Source: Pleurocapsa sp. CCALA 161 (GTDB lineage: Bacteria; Cyanobacteriota; Cyanobacteriia; Cyanobacteriales; Xenococcaceae). Taken from it: a stretch of DNA of 64,000 nucleotides. The stretch is taken from contig NZ_PVWF01000010.1 in the NCBI RefSeq assembly GCF_003003995.1, positions 1 to 64,000 of the forward strand. Reading direction: 5' to 3'. The notes beneath the pieces were generated by a model. The model saw only the letters and a list, made by a program, of their open reading frames with translations. It had not been told where the DNA came from and searched no databases. Positions 28,878-41,172 of the stretch are shown here, piece by piece. The position numbers and the translations under genes are program-made. Each line of letters starts with the position of its first letter. Within the stretch, counting starts at the first letter, position 1.

Positions 28878-29456
28878 CTATCGTCTTTTTTTTGGGTATA
28901 GCCACCCAGAAAAAAGTTTGGTCATTCTGGGCATCAATACATAGGTCATCAGCAATACCAAGATGGCAGTAATTATTAAACTTTTGACCAACAACGGCAA
29001 GAATAATAATTCTAGCAGAGGTGCAAGAGTCAAATTTGCTAATTGAATTGAGGGAAAGAGCGCTAGCAAAGTAACGGTTGCCATCTTGTAACGCGGTGGT
29101 GGATGAATTTGCGGGGAAGAAGAAGGCAAAGTAAACCAAGTTTCTAAGCCTGTAATCACCCTAATTCGTGCAGGTTCTAAACGCAAGCTCTCCGCGCGGG
29201 CTAGCCACTGACGACGACATTCTGATTGTTCCCAAATCTGTAAGTTGCTGGCACGATCAAATTTAAAAATAATGCGATATTCGTTATCTGTTGGACTGCT
29301 AGGACGAAAAACGTTAGTGCCTAAATGCCCTTCAAAGGTCATCGCAGCAGCGGTAATTCCTGAAATAAACTTCTCAAATGCTACTTTACACCCAGGCTTT
29401 ACTTTGCGCGAGATAACTACCGTGACGGGGGGATCGATTAAGTCTTTATCTCTCAT
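28878..29456 (-). CDS. Antibiotic-biosynthesis-monooxygenase (ABM) domain membrane protein
   Basis: A 192-aa protein. Residues about 10-95 form an ABM-type dimeric alpha/beta barrel (VVISRKVKPGCKVAFEKFI, then FEGHLGTNVFRP and EYRIIFKFDRASNLQIWE), followed by two hydrophobic helices (about 130-150 and 158-178, ending YVLMPRMTKLF). This ABM-plus-two-helix layout is widespread in bacteria, including cyanobacteria, with no settled function. It is divergent from the Rieske gene of the purine island; nothing suggests it belongs to that pathway. Confidence 0.85.
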   Translation of the reverse strand: MRDKDLIDPPVTVVISRKVKPGCKVAFEKFISGITAAAMTFEGHLGTNVFRPSSPTDNEYRIIFKFDRASNLQIWEQSECRRQWLARAESLRLEPARIRVITGLETWFTLPSSSPQIHPPPRYKMATVTLLALFPSIQLANLTLAPLLELLFLPLLVKSLIITAILVLLMTYVLMPRMTKLFSGWLYPKKRR

Positions 29457-29595
29457 ACTATTACTGCTAACTGTTTGTCTTTCAGTTTTTGAATAAGCTT
29501 ATCTTGGCTCAAATTATAAAATCAAAAGATAACATCATAATTTGGTGATAAAAGACTAATTAGTAACTAAAAATACAAACTTATTATGGTTAACT

Positions 29596-29608
29596 GTATA
29601 CAGTATGC
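29596..29608. promoter_or_regulatory. Palindromic operator, copy 1 (Rieske gene promoter)
   Basis: GTATACAGTATGC, one mismatch from GTATAC-A-GTATAC, ending 42 bp before the Rieske gene ATG. See also 37091, 39136 and 41045. Confidence 0.7.
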
Positions 29609-29650
29609 AGTATTAACAAACTAACTATTAATGACTAGGGCTTAACCTTT

Positions 29651-30643
29651 ATGCTAGTCACCAAAGAAAAAGTATTCAAGCAATTTTGGTATCCTGTGAT
29701 GCCTGTCTCTCAGATGTCAGGACAACCCGAGGGATTCGAATTATTGGGGCAAAAACTGGTTTTATGGCTAGATGATTCTGGTAGAGCAATAGTAGCAAGC
29801 GATCGCTGTTGTCATCGTTCAGCACAATTATCCAAAGGCAAGATTATTGATGGTAATATTGTCTGTCCCTATCATGGTTGGCGGTACGACGGACAAGGAG
29901 TCTGCGTAAAAGTTCCTCAGTTAGAAGACAGCAGCCAGATACCTAAAGGTTATCAAATAAATACCTATTTAGCTCAAGAACGTTATGGATATATCTGGGT
30001 ATGCTTGGGCGAACCTTTAAATGAAATTCCCGAAATACCCGAAGCGAACGATCCTAATTTTCGCTTAATTCCTGAATTTTATGAAACCTGGTATTGTGCG
30101 GGGTTGAGAGTGATGGAAAATGAGTTCGATCTAGCTCATCCTACCTTTGTTCACACTACTACTTTTGGTAGCCAAAAGCATCCGATTCCCGATGCGATCG
30201 AGGTTAGCGAAACTGATTATGGGGTCACGGGAAAAGCAATTCTGGGTGTATTTAATCCCGAACAGCAACAGCAGAATCTCAAAATGGATGAAGACATAAC
30301 CACAAGAAATTTAGATTTAGATTGGTATTTACCTTTCACCTGCAAGCTAAGAATAAATTATCCCAATGGTTTAGTCCACATCATCGTTAATACCGCTACA
30401 CCGATTAATGATTCTTCTTCGCAGATTGTTCAGTTTTGCTTGCGCAACGACACCGAAGCAGAAACAAAAGCAGCAGATGTGGTGAAATTTGATCGCGCTG
30501 TGACTTTAGAAGACAAAGCCGTATTAGAAACTACGGATTATGACGTGCCGTTGGATTTAAAACAAGAACAACACATGATGACAGATAAGCCAGGAATTTT
30601 GATGAGGCGGAAGTTAAGCAAGCTGTTGGCAAGTAATAAATAA
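29651..30643 (+). CDS. Rieske non-haem iron oxygenase, first gene of the purine island
   Basis: The 330-aa protein has a complete Rieske [2Fe-2S] centre (CCHRSAQL with C-x-H, then CPYHGW with C-x2-H, residues about 53-76) and a catalytic domain with NEFDLAHPTFVH (Asp and two His forming the mononuclear iron site, residues about 157-168). It therefore hydroxylates or demethylates a small organic substrate with O2, using electrons from a separate reductase or ferredoxin. Family alone does not give the substrate. Its place ahead of two purine permeases and hpxO suggests a purine, as for the HpxD oxygenase that replaces xanthine dehydrogenase in Klebsiella; no HpxE-like reductase is present. The operator at 29596 precedes it. 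Confidence 0.88.
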   Translation: MLVTKEKVFKQFWYPVMPVSQMSGQPEGFELLGQKLVLWLDDSGRAIVASDRCCHRSAQLSKGKIIDGNIVCPYHGWRYDGQGVCVKVPQLEDSSQIPKGYQINTYLAQERYGYIWVCLGEPLNEIPEIPEANDPNFRLIPEFYETWYCAGLRVMENEFDLAHPTFVHTTTFGSQKHPIPDAIEVSETDYGVTGKAILGVFNPEQQQQNLKMDEDITTRNLDLDWYLPFTCKLRINYPNGLVHIIVNTATPINDSSSQIVQFCLRNDTEAETKAADVVKFDRAVTLEDKAVLETTDYDVPLDLKQEQHMMTDKPGILMRRKLSKLLASNK

Positions 30644-30744
30644 AAGAAAAGATAGAGGCGAACGGTGACGGACATGCCTCCAGACACTTATCCTTTAGGG
30701 CTAGTACTAAGCGTGAATCTTTTAAGGCATTTGCCCATATAAAA

Positions 30745-32184
30745 ATGAGTATTAATCAAGACGTAATCGATCGCAAGGACATAAATCAACCTAGAGGGGA
30801 ACCGCCTCGTGGGGGTTGGCAAGGTGCAGTTTCTCGTTATTTTGAATTTGACCGATATCGGACTAATTTTCGCACCGAAATTTTGGCAGGCGTGACTACT
30901 TTTATGACGATGGCGTACATTTTGGTAGTTAATCCGTTAATTCTTTCTGATGCCATATTTCTGAATCAGCCCAAAGATTTATTTGCCGAGTTGGTAGTAG
31001 CAACGGCAGTATCGGCAGGCATTGGCACACTGATTATGGCATTGTTGGCAAAATATCCTTTTGCCCTTGCCCCGGGAATGGGGATTAATGCTTTTTTTGC
31101 CTATTCGGTAGTTCTGGATTTAGGTATAAATTGGCGTACCGCCTTAGCTTGTGTATTTGTCGAAGGCTTGGTTTTTATCCTGCTGACAGTTAGCGATATT
31201 CGTCGCCATCTAATTACTGCTGTCCCCAGTTCGATTAAATCAGCAACTACGGTAGGAATTGGTTTATTTTTAGCCTATATTGGCTTAGGAGGGGCAACAG
31301 AAGTAGGCGGCGCGGGTCTAATTGTCGCTAGCGAAGTTACTAAAACCGATTTTGGTAGTTTAGCTCAACCTCAAGCTTTGATGGCAATTTTTGGTATTTT
31401 CCTGACTGCTTTCTTTATGGTGCGACGGATCAAAGGAGCATTGTTATGGGGAATTATTGGTACTGCTAGCTTGGGGTGGATCTTTGGTGTGACCAACACA
31501 CCTCAAGGATTTGCTTCTATTCCAGCCTTTCCCAAAGATTTATTTGGGGCAGCATTTGTGGGTTTAGGAGGAATCAATGGCAGCAACTGGATTGATTTTC
31601 TGGCTGCACTGTTGGTGTTTCTCTTTGTGGATCTGTTCGATACTATCGGCACATTGGCGGGAGTGGGAATGCAGGCAGGATATATCGATGAGAATGGCGA
31701 ATTACCAAGGGCTAATCGAGCCTTAACCGCAGATGCGATCGCCACTACGGCTGGGGCAGTCATGGGAACATCTAGCGTTACTACCTTTGTGGAGTCGGCT
31801 TCAGGCGTTGCTGAAGGAGGGCGTACTGGTTTTGCATCAGTCATAGTTGCAGCCTTGTTCTTTATTTCTTTAATCTTTACACCGATTTTTGAAGCTATAC
31901 CGGCCTTTGCTACTACTCCAGCCCTAACCATTGTGGGTGTATTGATGATGGCAAGCATCACAACTATTAACTGGGAGGATTTAACCGAAGCCATACCAGC
32001 TTTTTTAACTATATTCTTTATTCCCTTTGCCTTTTCCATTGCAGCAGGATTATCTATTGGCTTAATTGCCTATCCCCTATTAAAAACCTTTAAGGGCAAA
32101 GCGCAAGATGTACCTTTAGTCACTTGGATTCTGGCAGCTATATTTGTCGCTCGCTTTATTTTTATGACTTTGCGCTTTGGCTAA
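30745..32184 (+). CDS. AzgA-family purine permease (hypoxanthine/guanine/adenine)
   Basis: A 479-aa, 12-14-helix membrane protein of the nucleobase-cation symporter 2 fold, AzgA subfamily. Signature segments are FRTEILAGVTTFMTMAYILVV (in overlapping parts), ALAPGMGINAFFAY, FVDLFDTIGTLAGV and GTSSVTTFVESASGVAEGGR. Characterised members import hypoxanthine, guanine and adenine with protons. The N-terminal 40 residues are soluble and contain a proline/glycine-rich stretch (QPRGEPPRGGW). It lies 101 bp after the Rieske gene and 54 bp before a second permease, probably in one operon. Confidence 0.93.
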   Translation: MSINQDVIDRKDINQPRGEPPRGGWQGAVSRYFEFDRYRTNFRTEILAGVTTFMTMAYILVVNPLILSDAIFLNQPKDLFAELVVATAVSAGIGTLIMALLAKYPFALAPGMGINAFFAYSVVLDLGINWRTALACVFVEGLVFILLTVSDIRRHLITAVPSSIKSATTVGIGLFLAYIGLGGATEVGGAGLIVASEVTKTDFGSLAQPQALMAIFGIFLTAFFMVRRIKGALLWGIIGTASLGWIFGVTNTPQGFASIPAFPKDLFGAAFVGLGGINGSNWIDFLAALLVFLFVDLFDTIGTLAGVGMQAGYIDENGELPRANRALTADAIATTAGAVMGTSSVTTFVESASGVAEGGRTGFASVIVAALFFISLIFTPIFEAIPAFATTPALTIVGVLMMASITTINWEDLTEAIPAFLTIFFIPFAFSIAAGLSIGLIAYPLLKTFKGKAQDVPLVTWILAAIFVARFIFMTLRFG

Positions 32185-32238
32185 CCGTACAGGCAAACGG
32201 CTATTCACCCCCACCACAAATAATCAACAATTAACAAA

Positions 32239-33630
32239 ATGACCAATCAAGAATTGACTTTAGCAGAAGAAATTAAAACAGAAGCACCTGCTTCAATTGA
32301 ATCCGATTTAATTTATGGTTTAGAAGCCCGTCCCCCTTTTGTCGAATCTATCTTTGTCGCGTTGCAGCACGTATTTGCCTGCTTCGTCGGAATTATTACT
32401 CCTGGCTTAATTATCTGCGGAACATTAGAAGTGTCGCCAGCCGATACTACCTTTATTTTGAGTATGTCCTTGGTAGTATCAGGTATTGCTACTTTTATTC
32501 AAGCAAAAAGGTTTGGGCCAGTGGGTTCTGGATTATTAAGTATCCAAGGAACTAGCTTTGCTTTCTTAGCTCCAATTATTGCTGCGGGTTTGGCAGTCAA
32601 AGAAACTGGAGGTTCTCCCACAGATGCACTAGGTCTAATTTTTGGGTTATGTTTTTTTGGAGCTTTAATTGAAATTATTATTAGTCGTTTTTTGCACTTG
32701 GCAAATCAATTAATTACACCTTTGGTTACGGGGGTAGTCGTGACTTTGATTGGTTTGACCTTAATCAAAGTTGGGATCACTTCTATGGGTGGAGGAGTAG
32801 CCGCCCAAAATAATGACACTTTTGGCAGTTGGACTTATTTAGGTGTTTCTCTGTTGGTGTTGGCGGTAATTGTTATTCTCAATAGTCTCAACAGTAACTT
32901 TTTGCGCATGTCATCGGTAGTTATTGGTTTAGCTGTAGGCTACATAGTTTCAATTCCCTTGGGATTAGTCGATTTTAGTAATTTATCTCAACTGCCTTTA
33001 ATTGCTTTGCCGATACCGTTTAAATATGGCTTAAAATTTGATTTTGGGGCATTTATTCCCTTTGCTTTTTTATATGTAATTACTGCCATTGAATCAATTG
33101 GCGATTTGACCGCAACCTCGGCTATTTCTGGCGAACCGATTAAAGGGCCAATATACTTTCGTCGACTTCAAGGCGGAATTTTAGGGGATGGAATTAATTC
33201 CATGATTGCTGCTGCTTTCAATACTTTTCCCAACACTACTTTTAGTCAAAATAATGGTGTTATTCAATTGACGGGAGTAGGTAGTCGCTACGTGGGCTAT
33301 TTTATTTCGGTAATTTTTGTGGTTCTTGGTCTTTTTCCGATTATCGCGGGAATTTTTCAGGCTTTACCCCAACCAGTCTTGGGTGGGGCGACCATTATTA
33401 TGTTTGGAACTGTGGCGGTAGCAGGAATCAAAATTCTGTCGATGGTCAATCTAACTAAACGTAATTCAATTATTTTGGCGGTTGCTTTAAGCATGGGTTT
33501 GGGGGTAACTTTTGTTCCTGAAATTCTCGAGGCTTCACCTGAACTAATTAAAAGTATTTTTTCTTCAGGTATTTCAACAGGAGGACTCACTGCTTTAATT
33601 TTGAATATGATTTTGCCAGGAAGAGAATAA
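32239..33630 (+). CDS. NCS2 xanthine/urate-type permease (XanQ/UapA-like)
   Basis: A 463-aa polytopic permease of the nucleobase-ascorbate transporter family. The NAT signature reads SQNNGVIQLTGV (residues about 335-347); a glutamine-asparagine here, rather than glutamate-asparagine of uracil permeases, is characteristic of xanthine and urate transporters such as XanQ and UapA. Other landmarks: the QHVFACFVGI segment (the TM1 histidine), IQGTSFAFLAPI and AIESIGDLTATSAISGEP with the substrate-binding glutamate. Together with the AzgA permease it would let the cell import oxidised and unoxidised purines. Next to hpxO, matching the hpxO-hpxP pairing in Klebsiella. Confidence 0.92.
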   Translation: MTNQELTLAEEIKTEAPASIESDLIYGLEARPPFVESIFVALQHVFACFVGIITPGLIICGTLEVSPADTTFILSMSLVVSGIATFIQAKRFGPVGSGLLSIQGTSFAFLAPIIAAGLAVKETGGSPTDALGLIFGLCFFGALIEIIISRFLHLANQLITPLVTGVVVTLIGLTLIKVGITSMGGGVAAQNNDTFGSWTYLGVSLLVLAVIVILNSLNSNFLRMSSVVIGLAVGYIVSIPLGLVDFSNLSQLPLIALPIPFKYGLKFDFGAFIPFAFLYVITAIESIGDLTATSAISGEPIKGPIYFRRLQGGILGDGINSMIAAAFNTFPNTTFSQNNGVIQLTGVGSRYVGYFISVIFVVLGLFPIIAGIFQALPQPVLGGATIIMFGTVAVAGIKILSMVNLTKRNSIILAVALSMGLGVTFVPEILEASPELIKSIFSSGISTGGLTALILNMILPGRE

Positions 33631-33745
33631 TTACTGATTTTTGGTGGTCTTTCGATGAGCATTAGTAGCAGAGTATTTTGATGTAAACGTAATTATGTTC
33701 CTGCCCACAATACAACTAACGACTAATAACTAAAGACTGATTAAT

Positions 33746-34909
33746 ATGTATCAACTTAAAGCAATTATTATTGGCGCAGGGATGGCTGGATTAGCTGCTG
33801 GTATTGCAATGCGTCAAGCAGGATACGAAGTAGAAATTTACGAAAAGACAAAGAAGTTACGTCCTGCGGGGGCGGGGATTTCTCTGTGGTCGAATGGGAT
33901 TAAAGTTCTCAATAAATTAGGACTAGGGAAGCAAGTCGCTGCTATTGGCGGACAGATGAACCGCATGGAATACCGTAATAGTCAGGGAGAAGTTTTAAAT
34001 GATGTCAACTTGATTCCTTTAATGGAACAGGTAGGACAAAGACCTTATCCTGTATCTCGAACTGATCTACAAGAGATGATGCTCAACGCCTTCGGTAAAT
34101 CAGATGTACAGATGGGAATGCGCTGTATAGAAGTTAAACAGGATGCAGATAGTGCCACAGCTATTTTTGAGGATGGGACTATTGCTACAGGAGATGTGAT
34201 TATTGGTGCAGATGGAATTCATTCAGTAGTGCGTAGCTATCTTGCTTGCGGAAAGATAGAATCTCGCTATGCAGGTTATGTTAACTGGAATGGATTGGTT
34301 GAAGCTAGCCCCGATTTGGCAGAAAGTGATGTTTGGGTAATTTATGTAGGCGAAGGGAAACGCGCCTCGATGATGCCTGTGGGGGGAAATCGGTTTTACT
34401 TTTTTATGGGCTGTCCAAAACCTCAAGGAACAACCCCACCTAATGGAGATATTCGCGCCGAGTTAAAAGAAATCTTCGCAGGGTGGGCGCAGCCAGTACA
34501 GAACCTAATTGAGAAGCTCGATCCTGAACAGGTAAACCGTCTGGAAATTGGCGATATAGATCCCTTGCCTAACTTAGTAGAAGGTCGAATTGCCTTAGTC
34601 GGAGATTCGGCACACGCAACTACTCCAACTTTAGGACAGGGAGGCTGTCAGGCGATGGAAGATGCAGAAGTACTTTGTCGCTATTTGATTACAACTAATA
34701 TTAGCGTCGAAGATGCCCTCAAGCGTTATGAAGCAGAACGAAAAGAAAGGGTGGCGCAGCTAGTATTGAAAGCCCGCAAGCGGACTGATACTATCTATAA
34801 CAAAGAGCCAGATTTAACCCAGCAGTGGTACGAACAATTAAAGCAAGAAAATCCTCAAGATGTTACAGGTGCGATCGCAAAAATCATTCTTGGAGGCCCT
34901 TTGCATTGA
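33746..34909 (+). CDS. hpxO: FAD-dependent urate hydroxylase, HpxO type
   Basis: HpxO converts urate to 5-hydroxyisourate with NADH and O2, the job of uricase elsewhere. The 387-aa flavoprotein has the FAD dinucleotide motif GAGMAGLAAG (residues 9-18), GADGIHS (near 155) and GDSAHATTPTLGQGG (from 286). Stretches such as RPYPVSRTDLQ, YAGYVNWNGLVE, GEGKRASMMPVGG and the C-terminal LVLKARKRTDT...ILGGPL match Klebsiella HpxO closely from memory, much better than salicylate-type hydroxylases. It is flanked by a purine permease and by the HIU-hydrolase remnant and uraD, which supports the assignment. No uricase gene is visible. Confidence 0.9.
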   Translation: MYQLKAIIIGAGMAGLAAGIAMRQAGYEVEIYEKTKKLRPAGAGISLWSNGIKVLNKLGLGKQVAAIGGQMNRMEYRNSQGEVLNDVNLIPLMEQVGQRPYPVSRTDLQEMMLNAFGKSDVQMGMRCIEVKQDADSATAIFEDGTIATGDVIIGADGIHSVVRSYLACGKIESRYAGYVNWNGLVEASPDLAESDVWVIYVGEGKRASMMPVGGNRFYFFMGCPKPQGTTPPNGDIRAELKEIFAGWAQPVQNLIEKLDPEQVNRLEIGDIDPLPNLVEGRIALVGDSAHATTPTLGQGGCQAMEDAEVLCRYLITTNISVEDALKRYEAERKERVAQLVLKARKRTDTIYNKEPDLTQQWYEQLKQENPQDVTGAIAKIILGGPLH

Positions 34910-34922
34910 ACATTGAACAGAC

Positions 34923-35078
34923 ATGCCAGGTAAATTAATGACTCACGTATTAGATACGGTAAATGATTGTCCAGATCAAGGAGTTGCGATCGCAAATTAT
35001 GGAAACCTAATCTCAAATATAGATTCTAAAATCTTCTTCTCTTGCTTTAAAGACACTATTCTAATCGCCAGTGAATAA
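34923..35078 (+). pseudogene. Remnant of 5-hydroxyisourate hydrolase (transthyretin-like), N-terminus only
   Basis: ATG at 34923 opens a 51-codon frame. Its first 24 residues read GKLMTHVLDTVNDCPDQGVA, the canonical N-terminal strand of HIU hydrolases (compare GKLTTHILD in PucM). After about residue 26 similarity stops: the rest, including the C-terminal YRGS active-site tail, is missing and the frame continues in unrelated sequence to TAA at 35076-35078. The enzyme would hydrolyse 5-hydroxyisourate to OHCU, between HpxO and UraD. Its position exactly between hpxO and uraD shows it was part of the operon. The stop overlaps the GTG start of uraD (GTGAATAA), so translating the remnant could still help start uraD. 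Confidence 0.75.
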
Positions 35079-35574
35079 TAAATATGCGATCGCAAAATTA
35101 AATAATCTGTCTCAGGAAGAGTTTACTGCTGTTTTGGGGAAGATTTGGGAAGAAACACCCGAAATTGCTGAGAAAGCTTGGCAAGATAAACCTTTTGAGA
35201 ATTTAGAAGCTTTATATCAGGCTATGCTTGCCGTGGTCAACCAGATGAGTGAAGCTAAACAGGTAGCGTTAATTAAAGCTCATCCCGATTTGGGTAGCAA
35301 AACTAAGATGGCAGAAGCTTCAGTGCAAGAACAAGCAGGAATAGGCTTAGATCGCTTATCTAAATCAGAATATCAGCGTTTTCAATTTCTCAACCAGGCT
35401 TACAAAGACAAGTTTGGTTTTCCTTTTATAGTTGCGGTGAAGCATCACACCAAAGAAAGTATTTTAGAAGCATTTGAAACTCGTTTAAATAATACTCAAG
35501 AACGAGAAAAACAACAGGCTTTAACTGAAATTAGTAAAATTGCTCGACTACGTTTAGACTCTTTAATTGATTAA
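35071..35574 (+). CDS. uraD: 2-oxo-4-hydroxy-4-carboxy-5-ureidoimidazoline (OHCU) decarboxylase
   Basis: UraD decarboxylates OHCU to (S)-allantoin. The 167-aa protein has the family landmarks LNNLSQEEFTAVLG at the N-terminus, AHPDLGSK with the catalytic histidine at residue 71, GLDRLSKSEYQRFQFLN, and the substrate-binding FGFPFIVAVK near residue 115, ending in a helical tail. Length is normal. GTG at 35071 is the only start that keeps the conserved N-terminus; it overlaps the remnant's stop codon. It follows hpxO and the remnant and precedes the amidohydrolase by 63 bp. Also called hpxQ in Klebsiella. Confidence 0.93.
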   Translation: MNNKYAIAKLNNLSQEEFTAVLGKIWEETPEIAEKAWQDKPFENLEALYQAMLAVVNQMSEAKQVALIKAHPDLGSKTKMAEASVQEQAGIGLDRLSKSEYQRFQFLNQAYKDKFGFPFIVAVKHHTKESILEAFETRLNNTQEREKQQALTEISKIARLRLDSLID

Positions 35575-35637
35575 AGTATATGTAAGTATTTCATATATCT
35601 ATACGGCTTATTGCTCATCCTTCTTCCCTTAAAATAA

Positions 35638-36999
35638 ATGTCTACCTTACTGGTCAACAACATTCATACTCTTGTGACAATGGACAACGAACGTCGCGAA
35701 ATTCGGCGTGGCGCGCTATTGGTTAGGGATAATGTCATCGAACAGATAGGAACAACCGAAGAATTACCTGATACTGCCGATGAAGTTCTAGACTTACAAG
35801 ACAAGCATATTGTATTACCAGGGCTAGTAAATACCCATCATCATTTCTTTCAAAATCTAACCCGTGTAACTCCCGCAGGACAAAATGGTGACTTATTTCA
35901 ATGGCTGACTGCACACTATCCTTTGTGGTCTAATCTAACTGGAAAAGGGATGTATTATAGTTCTCAGTTAGCAGCGACAGAATTAATCTTGTCAGGCTGC
36001 ACTACCGCCAGCGATCATCACTATATATTTCCTAATGACTGTACCCTTGATGAGCAAATTAGAGGAGTGAGGGAAATTGGTTTGCGGTTTCATGCCAGTC
36101 GGGGAAGTATGAGCGTCGGGGAAAGTAATGGCGGTTTGCCTCCAGATTCTCTGGTAGAAAAAGAAGCCGATATTTTGAAAGATTCTCAACGGTTGATTGA
36201 AGAGTATCATAATAGCGATCGCTATTCTATGCTGAGAATTGTCCTAGCCCCCTGTTCCCCTTTTTCTGTATCTACAGACTTAATGCGCGAGTCGGCTGCA
36301 ATGGCGAGAAGTTACAAAGGAGTGAGATTACATACTCATCTGGCAGAAAATAAAGGAGATGTGGAATATAGTCTATCTAAGTTTAATCTCACTCCTGGAG
36401 ATTATGCCGAGTCGGTGGGTTGGCTAGGGGATGATGTCTGGCACGCTCATTGTGTAAAATTAAGCGATCGCGCGATCGATAAATTTGGTCAAACTAGTAC
36501 GGGAGTCGCCCATTGTCCCTGTAGTAATATGCGTCTGGCTAGCGGTATTGCCCCGATCCGCAAAATGCTCAACAAAAATGTGCCTGTTGGTTTAGGAGTG
36601 GATGGGGCAGCTTCTAACGATGCTACTAACTTATTCCATGAAGCCCGCCAAGCTTTCTTACTCGCTCGCGTTAGAGATGAAGATGCTTCGGTAATGACTG
36701 CCCGCGATGTCCTAGAAATTGCCACTAGAGGCGGTGCCAAAGTTTTGGGCAGAGATGATCTCGGCTATCTCGCCCCAGGAATGGCAGCAGATTTTATTGC
36801 AGTCGATCTAGATAAACTTGGATATGTGGGAACACAAGCCGATCCTGTATCGGCATTAATTTACTGTCAAACCGATCGCATCGACTACAGTTTTATTAAC
36901 GGTAAAAAAGTTGTAGATCGAGGCAATTTAACTACCATTGAGCCTGAAAATTTGATCGCAAAAGCTAATTTAGTTGCGATCGCTTTAGCTAATGGTTAA
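35638..36999 (+). CDS. Amidohydrolase, 8-oxoguanine deaminase-like
   Basis: A 453-aa member of the amidohydrolase superfamily (cog0402). Metal ligands are in NTHHHF (residues 65-70), HTHLAEN (near 231), the HAHC segment and GVDGAASND (near 322). The stretches SRGSMSVGESNGGLPPDS, LAPCSPFSVS and HCPCSNMRLASGIAP resemble Pseudomonas PA0142, which deaminates 8-oxoguanine to urate, more than guanine deaminase proper; related triazine hydrolases (AtzB) are the alternative. Producing urate right beside hpxO makes 8-oxoguanine, or guanine-type, deamination the natural reading. Last gene of the presumed operon starting at 29651. Confidence 0.82.
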   Translation: MSTLLVNNIHTLVTMDNERREIRRGALLVRDNVIEQIGTTEELPDTADEVLDLQDKHIVLPGLVNTHHHFFQNLTRVTPAGQNGDLFQWLTAHYPLWSNLTGKGMYYSSQLAATELILSGCTTASDHHYIFPNDCTLDEQIRGVREIGLRFHASRGSMSVGESNGGLPPDSLVEKEADILKDSQRLIEEYHNSDRYSMLRIVLAPCSPFSVSTDLMRESAAMARSYKGVRLHTHLAENKGDVEYSLSKFNLTPGDYAESVGWLGDDVWHAHCVKLSDRAIDKFGQTSTGVAHCPCSNMRLASGIAPIRKMLNKNVPVGLGVDGAASNDATNLFHEARQAFLLARVRDEDASVMTARDVLEIATRGGAKVLGRDDLGYLAPGMAADFIAVDLDKLGYVGTQADPVSALIYCQTDRIDYSFINGKKVVDRGNLTTIEPENLIAKANLVAIALANG

Positions 37000-37090
37000 G
37001 GCTTTACTCTGTTAACCTCCGACTCAAATCTTTTTTTGTTACCTAATTGTAATCTAAAGTAAATTTTACCAAATCACTTAAATTTGATTT

Positions 37091-37103
37091 GTATACTGTA
37101 TAC
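37091..37103. promoter_or_regulatory. Palindromic operator, copy 2 (porin promoter)
   Basis: Perfect GTATAC-T-GTATAC, 66 bp before the porin ATG at 37170. Flanks extend the dyad (TTTGTATAC...GTATACATT). Confidence 0.75.
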
Positions 37104-37169
37104 ATTAATACGATGGCATCAAGATAATAATGATAATTTTGCTTATGATCAACAGGTGTGAGTTTGGAT

Positions 37170-39032
37170 ATGAACGATAGAAAAACTGAGTCTTGGTGTC
37201 CTAATTTTATTCAGAATTTTAATTTAATTAAAAATTCAATTTGGTTATTTTTCCCTGTTACCTTGCTATCAATTTCTACTATTGAAACCTCGGCATCAGA
37301 AGAATTATCTAGCTTGGACGATACGAATAGAATGTCTCAAGTTAATCATGTCCGACAGTTGAAATCACCTCAAAATTTGCCTAATCTCGAAAAAAATAAC
37401 GGGATGTCTCAAATTACCAACGTGAAACAGTTACGAGACGTTGCTCCTACAGATTGGGCTTATGAAGCGCTGCGTTCATTAGTAGATCGTTATGGTTGCA
37501 TTGCGGGGTTTCCTAACCAGACTTATCGTGGCAGTCAAGCTTTATCTCGGTATGAATTTGCTGCGGGTTTAAACTCTTGTCTCAATCAAATCGAACGTTT
37601 AATTGCCTCAAGGGACAACGTATCTCAGGAAGATCTAGAAACCGTACAGCGGTTGAGTCAGGAATTTGAAGCAGAATTAGCAACCCTTGGTGGCAGAGTT
37701 GATAGTCTTGACAGCCAGGTAGCTGTTTTGGAAGATAATCAATTTTCTACTACTACCAAATTTACAGGTGACATCTTTTTAAACGCTACAGGTGCAACTG
37801 CCAGTGATGATGTTTTAGCAGAGACAGTTAGTCTTGATACACCTCTTAGTCTTCGTCGCGCAGGGCGAGATGCAAATAATAATCCGATCATTAGTAATAT
37901 TACCGAAGATCCTGAAATAACCTTTAGTTACTATACTTGGCTCAACTTCAACTCTTCATTTACAGGAAAAGATAACTTTACTATTCAATTAGTAGCAGGC
38001 AACGGTGATTCTCCTGCTAATAATTATGTTTCCGCAGGGCTTTATAACACTTTTGGCACTCCTTTTACCGATCAAACTGGTACAGCTTCAGGAACAAATA
38101 GCGTTGAACTACGAGAATTGTTCTATGATTTTCCGATTGGCGAAAAGCTCAGAGTTATAGTAGGACCAAGAATTAATTGGTATCGCTATTTTGATAACAA
38201 TAACTATACTTTCTTTCTGACTGGTGCAGGTAGCTATAACTCTAGTGGGGGAACTCTAGTAAATCCAGTCGATCGCGGTTCGGGCGCAGTAATAACCTAT
38301 GATTTTAATGATTCACTCAGCTTTAAAGTTGGTTATTTGGGAGAAAACACCGAATTTTTACCATCACAGTTCTTTAATACCTCTTCTGATCCTAATCAAG
38401 GATTATTTAGTGCAACTCAAAGTCTCACTGCCGAATTAGATCTGGCGATCGCCGAACGAGCTAACATCCGTTTAATGTACACTAGAGCTACGGTGGATAA
38501 TAATCAACCTATCCTAGATGCAAATGGCAACGTCACAGGCTTTGGTGTTGGTGGGGCAACAGGTGAACCCATCTATGGAATAGCTGATGATGGTTTTGGT
38601 GGCACAATCGGCGATGCTCCTTCTGATACTTTTTCTGTTAACTTTGACTGGGCAATTCTCGACAAGCTGGGCATATTTGGTCGCTATAATTATGGCAGCA
38701 CCAGCATTAGACCGACAAATCCCGCTCTGGACAATGGCGAAGTAAATGCCCAGGCTTTTCAAGCTGGAGTAGCTTTTCCTGACTTGGGGAAAGAAGGTGC
38801 ATTAGGGACTTTATCTTTTGTAATTCCTTTCGATGTACTTGATGGAGAAGAGTTTCTCGTATCTGGGGCGGGGGATGATGGTACTCAATACGAGTTGGAA
38901 GCTACCTATAATTTCCCTGTCAATGATAATCTATCAATTCTTCCTGCCTTTTACTTCGTAGCTAATCCTAACAATTTTGAAGATAATCCTAATATTTACG
39001 TGGGTAATGTGCGAATGCAGTTTAGATTGTAG
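37170..39032 (+). CDS. Cyanobacterial SLH/OprB-type outer-membrane porin
   Basis: About 620 aa from ATG 37170 (an in-frame GTG at 37158 is possible). An N-terminal hydrophobic segment (IWLFFPVTLLSIS) ending near SAS is the export signal. An SLH-like domain follows (DVAPTDWAYEALRSLVDRYG, GFPNQTYRGSQALSRYEFAAG, residues about 90-145), then a coiled coil with heptad spacing (VSQEDLETVQRLSQEFEAEL...DSLDSQVAVLED in overlapping parts), and a beta-barrel ending in a terminal aromatic-type strand (VGNVRMQFRL). Such porins admit small solutes or ions across the outer membrane. Its operator and position within the purine island suggest purine or ureide uptake, by inference only. Confidence 0.88.
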   Translation: MNDRKTESWCPNFIQNFNLIKNSIWLFFPVTLLSISTIETSASEELSSLDDTNRMSQVNHVRQLKSPQNLPNLEKNNGMSQITNVKQLRDVAPTDWAYEALRSLVDRYGCIAGFPNQTYRGSQALSRYEFAAGLNSCLNQIERLIASRDNVSQEDLETVQRLSQEFEAELATLGGRVDSLDSQVAVLEDNQFSTTTKFTGDIFLNATGATASDDVLAETVSLDTPLSLRRAGRDANNNPIISNITEDPEITFSYYTWLNFNSSFTGKDNFTIQLVAGNGDSPANNYVSAGLYNTFGTPFTDQTGTASGTNSVELRELFYDFPIGEKLRVIVGPRINWYRYFDNNNYTFFLTGAGSYNSSGGTLVNPVDRGSGAVITYDFNDSLSFKVGYLGENTEFLPSQFFNTSSDPNQGLFSATQSLTAELDLAIAERANIRLMYTRATVDNNQPILDANGNVTGFGVGGATGEPIYGIADDGFGGTIGDAPSDTFSVNFDWAILDKLGIFGRYNYGSTSIRPTNPALDNGEVNAQAFQAGVAFPDLGKEGALGTLSFVIPFDVLDGEEFLVSGAGDDGTQYELEATYNFPVNDNLSILPAFYFVANPNNFEDNPNIYVGNVRMQFRL

Positions 39033-39135
39033 TTAATCCTGAGCTTATATCTAAATAGCTGTATAGCTAGCGATCTCCTAAGTAGTATACGAGTTATCTA
39101 ATCAGTACGAAACAATATGATAGGTTAGAGTAACC

Positions 39136-39148
39136 GTATACAGTATAC
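39136..39148. promoter_or_regulatory. Palindromic operator, copy 3 (M20 hydrolase promoter)
   Basis: Perfect GTATAC-A-GTATAC only 25 bp before the ATG at 39174, so binding would cover the core promoter or the transcript start. Confidence 0.75.
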
Positions 39149-39173
39149 TTATTTATCTTCGGCTGCTTAATCT

Positions 39174-40415
39174 ATGAAATCAATAACTATTGCTAACCTG
39201 ACGATCAATGGCGATCGCCTGAATCAAAGCATTGCGACCTTAGCAAACATCGGTCAACTACCTAACGGTGGTGTAAAACGGATCGCCTATAGCCAAGAAG
39301 ACATAGAAGCTCGAAATCTAATTCAGCAATGGATGAGAGAGCTTGAGCTGGAGATAATTATAGATGCAGCAGGAAATATAATTGGCAGATATACTGGTAA
39401 AAATCCAGTCGCTTCGGCGATCGCCACTGGTTCGCATATTGATACTGTTCCCTGTGGCGGACATTATGACGGTGCTTATGGGGTGTTGGCAGGATTAGAA
39501 GTAGTCAGAGTTCTTCAAGAAAACCAAATTAAGTTAGACCGAACGATAGAAGTGATTGTTTTTACCGATGAAGAAGGCAGTATGATCGGCTCAAAAGCAA
39601 TGTCCGACAGAGTCGTTGGCGATCCTGAATATTATCGTCGTCCCGATGGTACAGATATTCAAACCTGTTTAGAAAGAGTTGGAGGTAATTGGGATAAGCT
39701 TACTCAAGCTCGTCGTAATCTTAATGATATATCTGCCTTTGTTGAACTTCATGTCGAACAAGGTCCTGTTTTAGAATCTATGGGCAAACAAATCGGTGTA
39801 GTAGAAGGTATAGTCGGACAAAGACGGTTCAATATTACAGTTAAAGGTAGTGCCAACCATGCTGGTACAACTCCAATGCAAATGCGCTGTGATGCATTAG
39901 TTGCAGCTTCTCAAGTTGTCTTATTGGTCAATCAAATTGGCAACAGTCCTGGTCAACAGGTAGCTACTGTCGGCAAAATTGAAGTATTCCCTAATGCTGC
40001 TAATGTTGTTCCTGGTTGGGTAGAAATGAGCTTGGATATTCGCGATCTGTCTAGCTTACACATAGATAGCTTGCTAAAGCAATTACGTGTTCATCTCGAA
40101 GAAATTGCCGTCACTACTAACACCCAAATTCGTTTAAATTCCTGTCTGCATAACGAACCAGCTTTAGCCGAATCCTATATCCAAAAAGCGATCGCCCTAA
40201 GCTGTGAAAATCTCAATTTAAGTTATACTCATTTGCCCAGTCGCGCTAGCCATGATGCTCAAGAATTAGCTTTAATTAGCGATATGGGGATGATTTTTGT
40301 TCCCAGCAAAATGGGAGTTTCCCACGATGCCAGCGAATATACTTCTCCTGAACAGTGTATTCAGGGGGCAAACGTATTATTGCAGACATTAATTAGATTA
40401 GGAAAAAGCAAATAA
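39174..40415 (+). CDS. M20-family amidohydrolase (allantoate amidohydrolase / carbamoylase type)
   Basis: A 413-aa zinc or manganese hydrolase of the hydantoinase/carbamoylase subfamily. Ligands: GSHIDTVP (His88), GHYDGAYG (Asp99), TDEEGSM (Glu133-Glu134), HVEQGPVLE (His near 199) and the C-terminal SHDAQE and GVSHDASEY histidines; the dimerization-domain sequence NHAGTTPMQMRCDAL is also typical. Family activities are allantoate amidohydrolase (AllC), ureidoglycolate amidohydrolase and N-carbamoyl-amino-acid hydrolase. In a purine-degradation island the ureide activities are the natural choice. No allantoinase gene is visible. The gene has its own operator copy. Confidence 0.87.
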   Translation: MKSITIANLTINGDRLNQSIATLANIGQLPNGGVKRIAYSQEDIEARNLIQQWMRELELEIIIDAAGNIIGRYTGKNPVASAIATGSHIDTVPCGGHYDGAYGVLAGLEVVRVLQENQIKLDRTIEVIVFTDEEGSMIGSKAMSDRVVGDPEYYRRPDGTDIQTCLERVGGNWDKLTQARRNLNDISAFVELHVEQGPVLESMGKQIGVVEGIVGQRRFNITVKGSANHAGTTPMQMRCDALVAASQVVLLVNQIGNSPGQQVATVGKIEVFPNAANVVPGWVEMSLDIRDLSSLHIDSLLKQLRVHLEEIAVTTNTQIRLNSCLHNEPALAESYIQKAIALSCENLNLSYTHLPSRASHDAQELALISDMGMIFVPSKMGVSHDASEYTSPEQCIQGANVLLQTLIRLGKSK

Positions 40416-40434
40416 TTATTGATCCCTATTGAAT

Positions 40435-40845
40435 TTAAGATCTAATTGTTTCGTTCATTGATTTATAAGCTGCCCAACCGCCTAAATCAGAAATATCGGG
40501 CCAGTTATACTTTTCAATTAACTCTTGGGGATATAACATTGCGATCGCATTTTCTTCTCCTTCTAAATTTACTGTCTCTGGATACATATGAGGAGGTTCG
40601 TTAGCCAAGAGATACTCATACTGGTCGTTAGTCATTTCATAGATTTCTCCAGGAATGCTAATACCATTTGTTTCGGTTGCATAAATAGCGGGATGCCAGC
40701 CGTTTTCTGCTGCATGAAGACGGTATTGAGGAAGAGTTTTGGTAGTTTTCATAAACTTCGCCGACTGAAGGTTTTGATGGTCTGGTTGTCCTTTCAAAGC
40801 CGAACCACAGATGAAAACTTGTTTGCTCTCTGATTTTGTTGTCAT
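40435..40845 (-). CDS. Gamma-glutamylcyclotransferase-like / allophanate-hydrolase C-domain-like protein
   Basis: A 136-aa stand-alone protein. It begins like the GGCT/AIG2 fold (VFICGSALKGQPDHQNL, where GSAL lines the active-site loop), continues with YRLHAAENGWHPAIY and GEIYEMTNDQYEYLLANEPP, and ends DISDLGGWAAYKS. That ending and the general pattern match the small C-terminal domain of allophanate hydrolase, whose role in urea and ureide breakdown is not catalytic amide hydrolysis of allophanate itself. Function here is unknown. It faces the M20 gene (convergent) and has the fourth operator copy 200 bp upstream, so it is likely part of the island. Confidence 0.75.
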   Translation of the reverse strand: MTTKSESKQVFICGSALKGQPDHQNLQSAKFMKTTKTLPQYRLHAAENGWHPAIYATETNGISIPGEIYEMTNDQYEYLLANEPPHMYPETVNLEGEENAIAMLYPQELIEKYNWPDISDLGGWAAYKSMNETIRS

Positions 40846-41044
40846 GATGTTAATTATGATGTGTGTAATTCAGGATTCTTGATAATTGTTAATTCCTCGA
40901 ACATTTTGGCTTTACTAGCAATTAAATGTTTTTAAATAGTTGTTCGAGCCAAATCTGAGTTTTTCAAAGCATCGCTTTACAATTTCTCGATGTTCTCAGC
41001 GGAAGAGATTAAGAACTAAATGTTTGAATGAGCTGGTTATTTTA

Positions 41045-41057
41045 GTATACAGTATAC
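41045..41057. promoter_or_regulatory. Palindromic operator, copy 4 (GGCT-like gene promoter)
   Basis: Perfect GTATAC-A-GTATAC in the 327-bp gap upstream of the minus-strand gene at 40435-40845; nothing else is seen in that gap. Confidence 0.7.
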
Positions 41058-41172
41058 AATAATTAACTTTGAATTTAGAGTATTTTAAAATTTTTTAGCA
41101 CAAGAATTTTGGCTATTGAGCGTAAAATTTATTTTGACAATTAATCATTTTCACTGGGCAAAACAGTTATAG

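Follow-up and report, generated by a model that had tools for sequence, protein, structure and literature searches.

A purine-degradation island in the cyanobacterium Pleurocapsa sp. CCALA 161 with a Rieske oxygenase as candidate stand-in for xanthine dehydrogenase and predicted control by NtcA and a GntR-type regulator

The closest described counterpart of the locus analyzed here, a purine-uptake and urate-degradation island in Pleurocapsa sp. CCALA 161, is the hpx cluster of Klebsiella, whose regulator HpxR is of the LysR type. The island lies in a 64,000-nucleotide stretch (hereafter the window), which is contig C31 of an assembly of 5.37 Mb in 249 contigs. It shares with the Klebsiella cluster (gene order in record L168) the urate hydroxylase HpxO, UraD, a 5-hydroxyisourate (HIU) hydrolase, an NCS2 permease and a Rieske oxygenase. 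According to PMC7373994, the hpxDE products carry out two oxidations, from hypoxanthine to xanthine and from there to urate. The two systems differ in that the cyanobacterial Rieske protein, which we call RO-A, belongs to another clade, an HpxE-type reductase is missing from the cyanobacterial hpxO loci (HpxE of L169 matched nothing there), and the cyanobacterial side has a GntR regulator of the FCD type together with an 8-oxoguanine deaminase and a porin.

Other described systems share single traits with the island. NdmA and NdmB are also Rieske oxygenases acting on purines and align to RO-A with 102-119 bits, but they form a separate branch, and no methylxanthine genes were seen adjoining RO-A. 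The Planktothrix-type cluster (hpxO-hiuH-uraD-guaD) likewise represents an HpxO route in cyanobacteria, but has a guanine deaminase in place of the 8-oxoguanine deaminase and lacks RO-A, the GntR regulator and the palindrome described below; one such genome (G255, apparently Planktothrix rubescens, L060) carries a gene of the xanthine dehydrogenase (XDH) type. Marine SAR11 also breaks purines down via urate and allantoin, but with XDH and the urate oxidase PuuD, and that account (PMC11698098) casts cyanobacteria as suppliers. An earlier note on this DNA, made from the letters alone, knew of no cyanobacterial description of the gene set, and we found none in the open-licence PMC literature searched, including PMC7373994, PMC11698098, PMC6186785, PMC5270733 and PMC4562309. 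Taken one by one, the enzymes belong to known types, whereas an RO-A clade in the place of XDH and the pairing of GntR with a palindrome appear undescribed in that literature.

We consider it probable that the island is central to a purine regulon that scavenges nitrogen, uses RO-A in place of XDH and stands under NtcA and GntR control. The earlier note had seen the Rieske oxygenase but neither its possible role as a stand-in for XDH nor the operators. It saw no XDH or uricase in the window; neither the XDH molybdenum domain MoCoBD_2 (matched in 6 of 14 control genomes) nor uricase PF01014 (matched in control genomes) had a match in the Pleurocapsa genome, PuuD and HpyO lying outside the search. 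We then compared a panel of 386 genomes, 25 of which are HpxO-positive (above the cut-off; weaker matches in 349 other genomes were treated as paralogs). RO-A (at least 350 bits, next match 182) occurs in 18 of the 386, and 15 of these 18 have HpxO (p=7e-18; this and the other association p-values for RO-A, HpxO, GntR and operator ignore shared ancestry). Every one of the 25 HpxO genomes has at least one xanthine-oxidizing candidate: 11 have an XDH-type gene (329 bits of MoCoBD_2 or more, next match 313), 2 a fused XDH-like gene, 4 an HpxD-clade protein (2 of them beside XDH; a lower bound, as only Rieske oxygenase matches of 1e-40 or better were considered) and 15 RO-A. RO-A is present in all 10 HpxO genomes without another candidate and in 5 of the 15 with one (p=0.0009, or p=0.0024 if the 205-bit match of G308 is counted as a candidate). 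The definitions of RO-A, XDH-type and HpxO genomes were chosen with the scores in view, and the XDH-like protein of G005 is assigned by score alone.

RO-A is without a match in G070, a genome of the same genus that encodes a molybdenum hydroxylase, an FAD subunit and XdhC. This XDH-like set, whose XDH-like protein scores 645 against a cut-off of 780, faces genes for a second permease and an adenosine deaminase, and the interval between the two sides holds a palindrome with two mismatches. We also collected loci around HpxO relatives (80 kept of 383 matched, 62 of them cyanobacterial, many ending at contig edges). Rieske oxygenase relatives lie inside 7 of the 62 cyanobacterial hpxO loci, including those of Xenococcus PCC 7305, Waterburya KI4 and Pseudanabaena, and in 7 of the 15 genomes with both genes RO-A lies within ~9 kb of hpxO. 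In 27 RO-A rows the cysteines and histidines of the Rieske center are invariant, as are the D-H-H residues of the iron site; the predicted structure has a mean pLDDT of 53. From these patterns RO-A would probably yield urate without molybdenum, in place of XDH, with ferredoxin as the presumed electron donor. Tandem RO-A pairs were seen in three genomes (L145:9010-11129, L147:9429-11843 and G005:C60), one with a palindrome upstream, and possibly perform two different purine oxidations.

In the Rieske tree RO-A forms a clade of its own (100/100) that includes one long Variovorax row, separate from the HpxD clade (100/100) of Klebsiella, Erwinia (a short row), Paraburkholderia, P. putida and Verticiella. 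The window protein is 31-32% identical to HpxD, and an identity as HpxD was abandoned because the tree sets the two clades apart. The nearest solved relatives, SxtT and SxtDIOX, are not in the tree, nor are some Rieske oxygenase matches of G011 and G193. The HpxD clade also holds Rieske proteins from five other cyanobacterial genomes (L107-L111); hence, cyanobacteria seem to contain two separate urate-linked Rieske lineages. This topology bears on a different explanation, that RO-A removes N-methyl groups from methylated purines or serves as some other tailoring oxygenase, rather than forming urate, and that urate comes from outside and from 8-oxoguanine. In its favor, the solved proteins closest to RO-A include the methylxanthine demethylases NdmA and NdmB, RO-A does not group with HpxD, and 4 genomes have RO-A alongside XDH-type genes while 3 have it without HpxO; RO-A is, however, separate from the NdmA/NdmB branch too, the deep branch order being unsure, and its presence in every HpxO genome that has no other candidate is not expected of a side activity. 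We regard the demethylase explanation as unlikely.

The remaining steps of the route could be traced partly in the island and partly elsewhere in the genome. The earlier note's proposal, uptake of purines and their oxidation to allantoin and further products with HpxO in the place of uricase, is supported by the sequence. Arg204 and Tyr216, which with Asp293 are active-site residues of Klebsiella HpxO, are kept in 89 of 89 rows, the window protein included. The hiuH remnant that the note had recognized is real: 43 residues from position 34923 align with the intact copy at a score of 97, whereas the best of 2000 shuffles scored 48, and relatives carry an entire hiuH in this slot between hpxO and uraD. 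The gap in HIU hydrolysis that the note implied is not supported: an intact hiuH of 119 residues, ending in YRGS, lies on contig C201, C118 has another copy whose start resembles a signal peptide, and both pass TIGR02962; thus, the HIU hydrolase step is not lost. A PuuE allantoinase is encoded on C150 (465 bits against a cut-off of 425; control genomes matched), with a palindrome ~200 bases upstream. Directly 5' of puuE lies a sodium:solute symporter gene (L087:7271-8665, below the PutP cut-off), a possible ureide transporter. The M20 hydrolase is probably an allantoate amidohydrolase, judging by its subfamily match; it falls below the AllC equivalog cut-off (290 against 598 bits), and its closest structure is the N-carbamoylase 3n5f.

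Taken together, purines would enter through the porin and then the two permeases, and RO-A would hydroxylate oxopurines to urate with no molybdenum, probably using the host's ferredoxin. The 8-oxoguanine deaminase would bring another base into the route, either 8-oxoguanine, by turning it into urate, or guanine, by turning it into xanthine. HpxO would convert urate to 5-hydroxyisourate, which the intact hiuH product and UraD would carry on to allantoin, and PuuE and the M20 hydrolase would open allantoin and release its nitrogen. The reactions of the M20 and AH_C proteins and growth of the strain on purines are predictions of this scheme. A bolder version, in which RO-A represents a new class of hydroxylase that needs no molybdenum, draws on ferredoxin, acts at C8 first and turns guanine into 8-oxoguanine for the deaminase to convert to urate, would let guanine reach urate without xanthine or guanine deaminase. 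It fits the Pleurocapsa genome, which has no XDH match and no guanine deaminase above the cut-off (the best match is the 8-oxoguanine deaminase itself; controls matched). The simpler route is favored by two RO-A loci (L005 and L144) that have a guanine deaminase instead, and by PMC6186785, in which guanine is reported to be also a substrate of 8-oxoguanine-deaminase relatives; we consider the C8-first version doubtful.

The 15-base palindrome TGTATACWGTATACA occurs at four places in the cluster. Across 63 cyanobacterial hpxO loci (1.05 Mb), 24 contain a total of 49 sites with at most one mismatch, while the reversed pattern gave 0 sites and 18 non-cyanobacterial loci gave 0; 44 of the 49 lie at purine gene starts, which make up 7.4% of the sequence. 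In the Pleurocapsa genome TGTATACWGTATNCA, with at most one mismatch, is found at six places (control 0): three in the cluster, one 5' of puuE, one 5' of a broken ABC permease on C60 and one unexplained, on C168, with no purine gene within 1.5 kb. The ABC permease copy (L130:7613-8465) has a frameshift and is followed by part of an ATPase; its counterpart sits in the purine cluster of G121.

The earlier note saw no allantoinase or regulator, which holds for the window but not for the genome, given PuuE and an FCD-type GntR. Among regulator types that it had suggested looking for, GntR was thus located, while simple motif scans of open reading frames near hpxO turned up nothing of the GntR, LysR or TetR type, and their three MarR-pattern matches were all in non-cyanobacterial loci. 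The genome has five GntR-domain matches, four above the cut-off. The FCD-type gene is split between two contigs, C191 and C176, but with 77 bases of overlap between them it is probably whole; an orthologue (L174:28353-29096) has both the GntR and FCD domains. Relatives with at least 46% identity occur in 16 of the 386 genomes, all of them HpxO-positive (p=2e-22), and other purine genes lie within ~1.5 kb of GntR in 12 of the 16, the exceptions being G000 (where the locus ends at a contig edge), G008, G133 (where the same contig carries an XDH-type gene at a distance of ~3 kb) and G215. Sites with at most two mismatches lie within 9 kb of hpxO in 12 of the 16 genomes with GntR versus 0 of the 9 without (p=0.0005; stretches 11 to 19 kb long, locus L010 representing G070), and the reversed pattern gave 0 in all 25. 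These co-occurrences suggest that the FCD-type GntR is likely a repressor acting at the palindrome; we infer both its binding there and a ligand for it.

On the Pseudanabaena ABRG5-3 plasmid NZ_AP017563.1 (L174), hpxO, uraD, puuE, uraH, a porin, the deaminase, M20, AH_C and GntR genes stand together with five sites, and such a plasmid location could explain the patchy distribution of the regulon. Between puuE and the AH_C gene this plasmid encodes a cyanuric-acid-amidohydrolase-family protein (L174:17724-18794; 478 against 360 bits), with similar proteins in L038 and L053; our guess is that cyanuric acid arises there as a urate by-product. The G121 purine cluster includes an Asp/Glu/hydantoin racemase family gene (L139:4576-5226), a candidate allantoin racemase.

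If, alternatively, another regulator reads the palindrome and GntR only travels with purine genes, one would understand why the link is one of co-occurrence, why GntR sits on other contigs in Pleurocapsa and why 4 of the 16 GntR genomes have no site near hpxO. The total lack of such sites in the HpxO genomes without GntR speaks against this, as do palindromes that in several genomes lie a short way 5' of the GntR gene, with a three-mismatch site 74 bases upstream of the Pleurocapsa gene, and we judge the alternative distinctly unlikely.

Under the regulon model, the GntR repressor would mask the -10 box at the operon head by binding TGTATACWGTATACA, and NtcA would activate the genes under nitrogen shortage. 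Among 64 upstream regions scanned, the NtcA promoter consensus of GTAN8TAC, a 22-base spacing and TAN3T stands at the head of the operon in the window and in L003, L005, L007 and L010, so that an NtcA-activated promoter is predicted there, in an arrangement conserved in five species; the same arrangement lies 5' of the porin in the window and L007. The promoter footprint is conserved in six species despite a differing first gene, the site being changed in L004. GTAN8TAC by itself is not enriched across the window (14 versus 9.9 expected). A further conserved block, roughly TATAGTTTTGTGACAAAA, lies 5' of the NtcA-type site in the window (~29525-29555), L003, L004, L005, L007 and L010. Riboswitch control is not supported, since an Rfam scan of the window returned no match. 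That the genes serve detoxification or salvage of oxidized purines and urate rather than nitrogen nutrition is very unlikely: oxidation products are possible targets of the 8-oxoguanine deaminase and the urate-linked enzymes, but the two permeases, porin, ureide-opening enzymes and conserved NtcA-type promoter point to nitrogen supply.

Several observations weigh against a GntR-controlled regulon with RO-A in place of XDH. RO-A falls outside the HpxD clade and is not within ~9 kb of hpxO in 8 of 15 genomes, and in the three RO-A genomes that lack HpxO no purine genes adjoin it. Lower-scoring molybdenum-hydroxylase matches also occur in 46 HpxO-negative genomes, so that XDH identity rests on score, with cut-offs fixed once the scores were known and p-values blind to ancestry. 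The HpxO Asp293 equivalent is threonine in the window protein and in 27 of 64 cyanobacterial rows. On the regulatory side, 39 of the 63 loci have no site with at most one mismatch, four GntR genomes have none near hpxO, no palindrome (at most two mismatches) was found near the relocated hiuH, and GntR is unlinked to the purine cluster in Pleurocapsa itself.

The gene content named in the earlier note was confirmed as open frames with Pfam or NCBIfam support, scored against curated cut-offs (Table 1); for the first permease this is PF00860 only, and its AzgA-like label, which comes from the note, is presumptive. All island genes are on the forward strand except the convergent gene for the small AH_C protein, which in other genomes adjoins hpxO or GntR. 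Divergent from the operon lies a gene for an ABM-domain protein, a relative of which adjoins in L003, L005, L007 and L010. Another relative is found in L139 with operators adjoining, and the protein is a possible member of the regulon.

Table 1. Features of the purine island and its flanks, in window coordinates, with scores given against the curated cut-off where two values appear.
Feature	Position	Strand	Basis or remark
ABM-domain protein	28878..29456	-	PF03992, E 6e-5, 23.5 vs 23.1 bits, barely above Pfam cut-off
NtcA-type site GTAACTAAAAATAC	29563..29576	+	22 bases 5' of TACAGT (29599-29604)
Candidate operator TGTATACAGTATGCA	29595..29609	.	palindrome over -10 box of operon head
RO-A Rieske oxygenase	29651..30643	+	Rieske and VanA_C domains; no family name above cut-off
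Purine permease (AzgA-like)	30745..32184	+	PF00860, 149 bits; no NCBIfam name
Xanthine/urate permease (PbuX-type)	32239..33630	+	PF00860; TIGR03173 (pbuX) 438 vs 414 bits
HpxO FAD-dependent urate hydroxylase	33746..34909	+	NF033623 equivalog 610 vs 500 bits; nearest structure 3rp6
hiuH remnant, first third only	34923..35075	+	alignment to intact copy of own genome
UraD, OHCU decarboxylase	35071..35574	+	TIGR03164 193 vs 96 bits
8-oxoguanine deaminase	35638..36999	+	NF006055 658 vs 532 bits; nearest PDB 7ww2, 3hpa
Candidate operator TGTATACTGTATACA, exact	37090..37104	.	overlaps GTAN8TAC site 37098-37111; porin's own palindrome
SLH-OprB porin	37158..39032	+	por_somb 356 vs 100 bits
Operator-like site CGTATACAGTATACT	39135..39149	.	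two mismatches
M20 ureide hydrolase	39174..40415	+	'allantoate amidohydrolase' subfamily NF006771 441 vs 399 bits
Small allophanate-hydrolase-C-domain (AH_C) protein	40435..40845	-	PF21986 95 vs 27 bits
Candidate operator AGTATACAGTATACA	41044..41058	.	5' of AH_C gene

The analysis predicts a molybdenum-avoiding route from purines to usable nitrogen in some cyanobacteria, and it provides testable candidates in the form of a regulator and its 15-base operator. Because either the oxygenase or an XDH-like set is found within the same genus, these genomes offer a natural experiment on the role of the oxygenase. If RO-A did act at C8 first, photosynthetic electrons would drive nitrogen scavenging. 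More broadly, the gene set suggests that some cyanobacteria can consume purines released by other cells.

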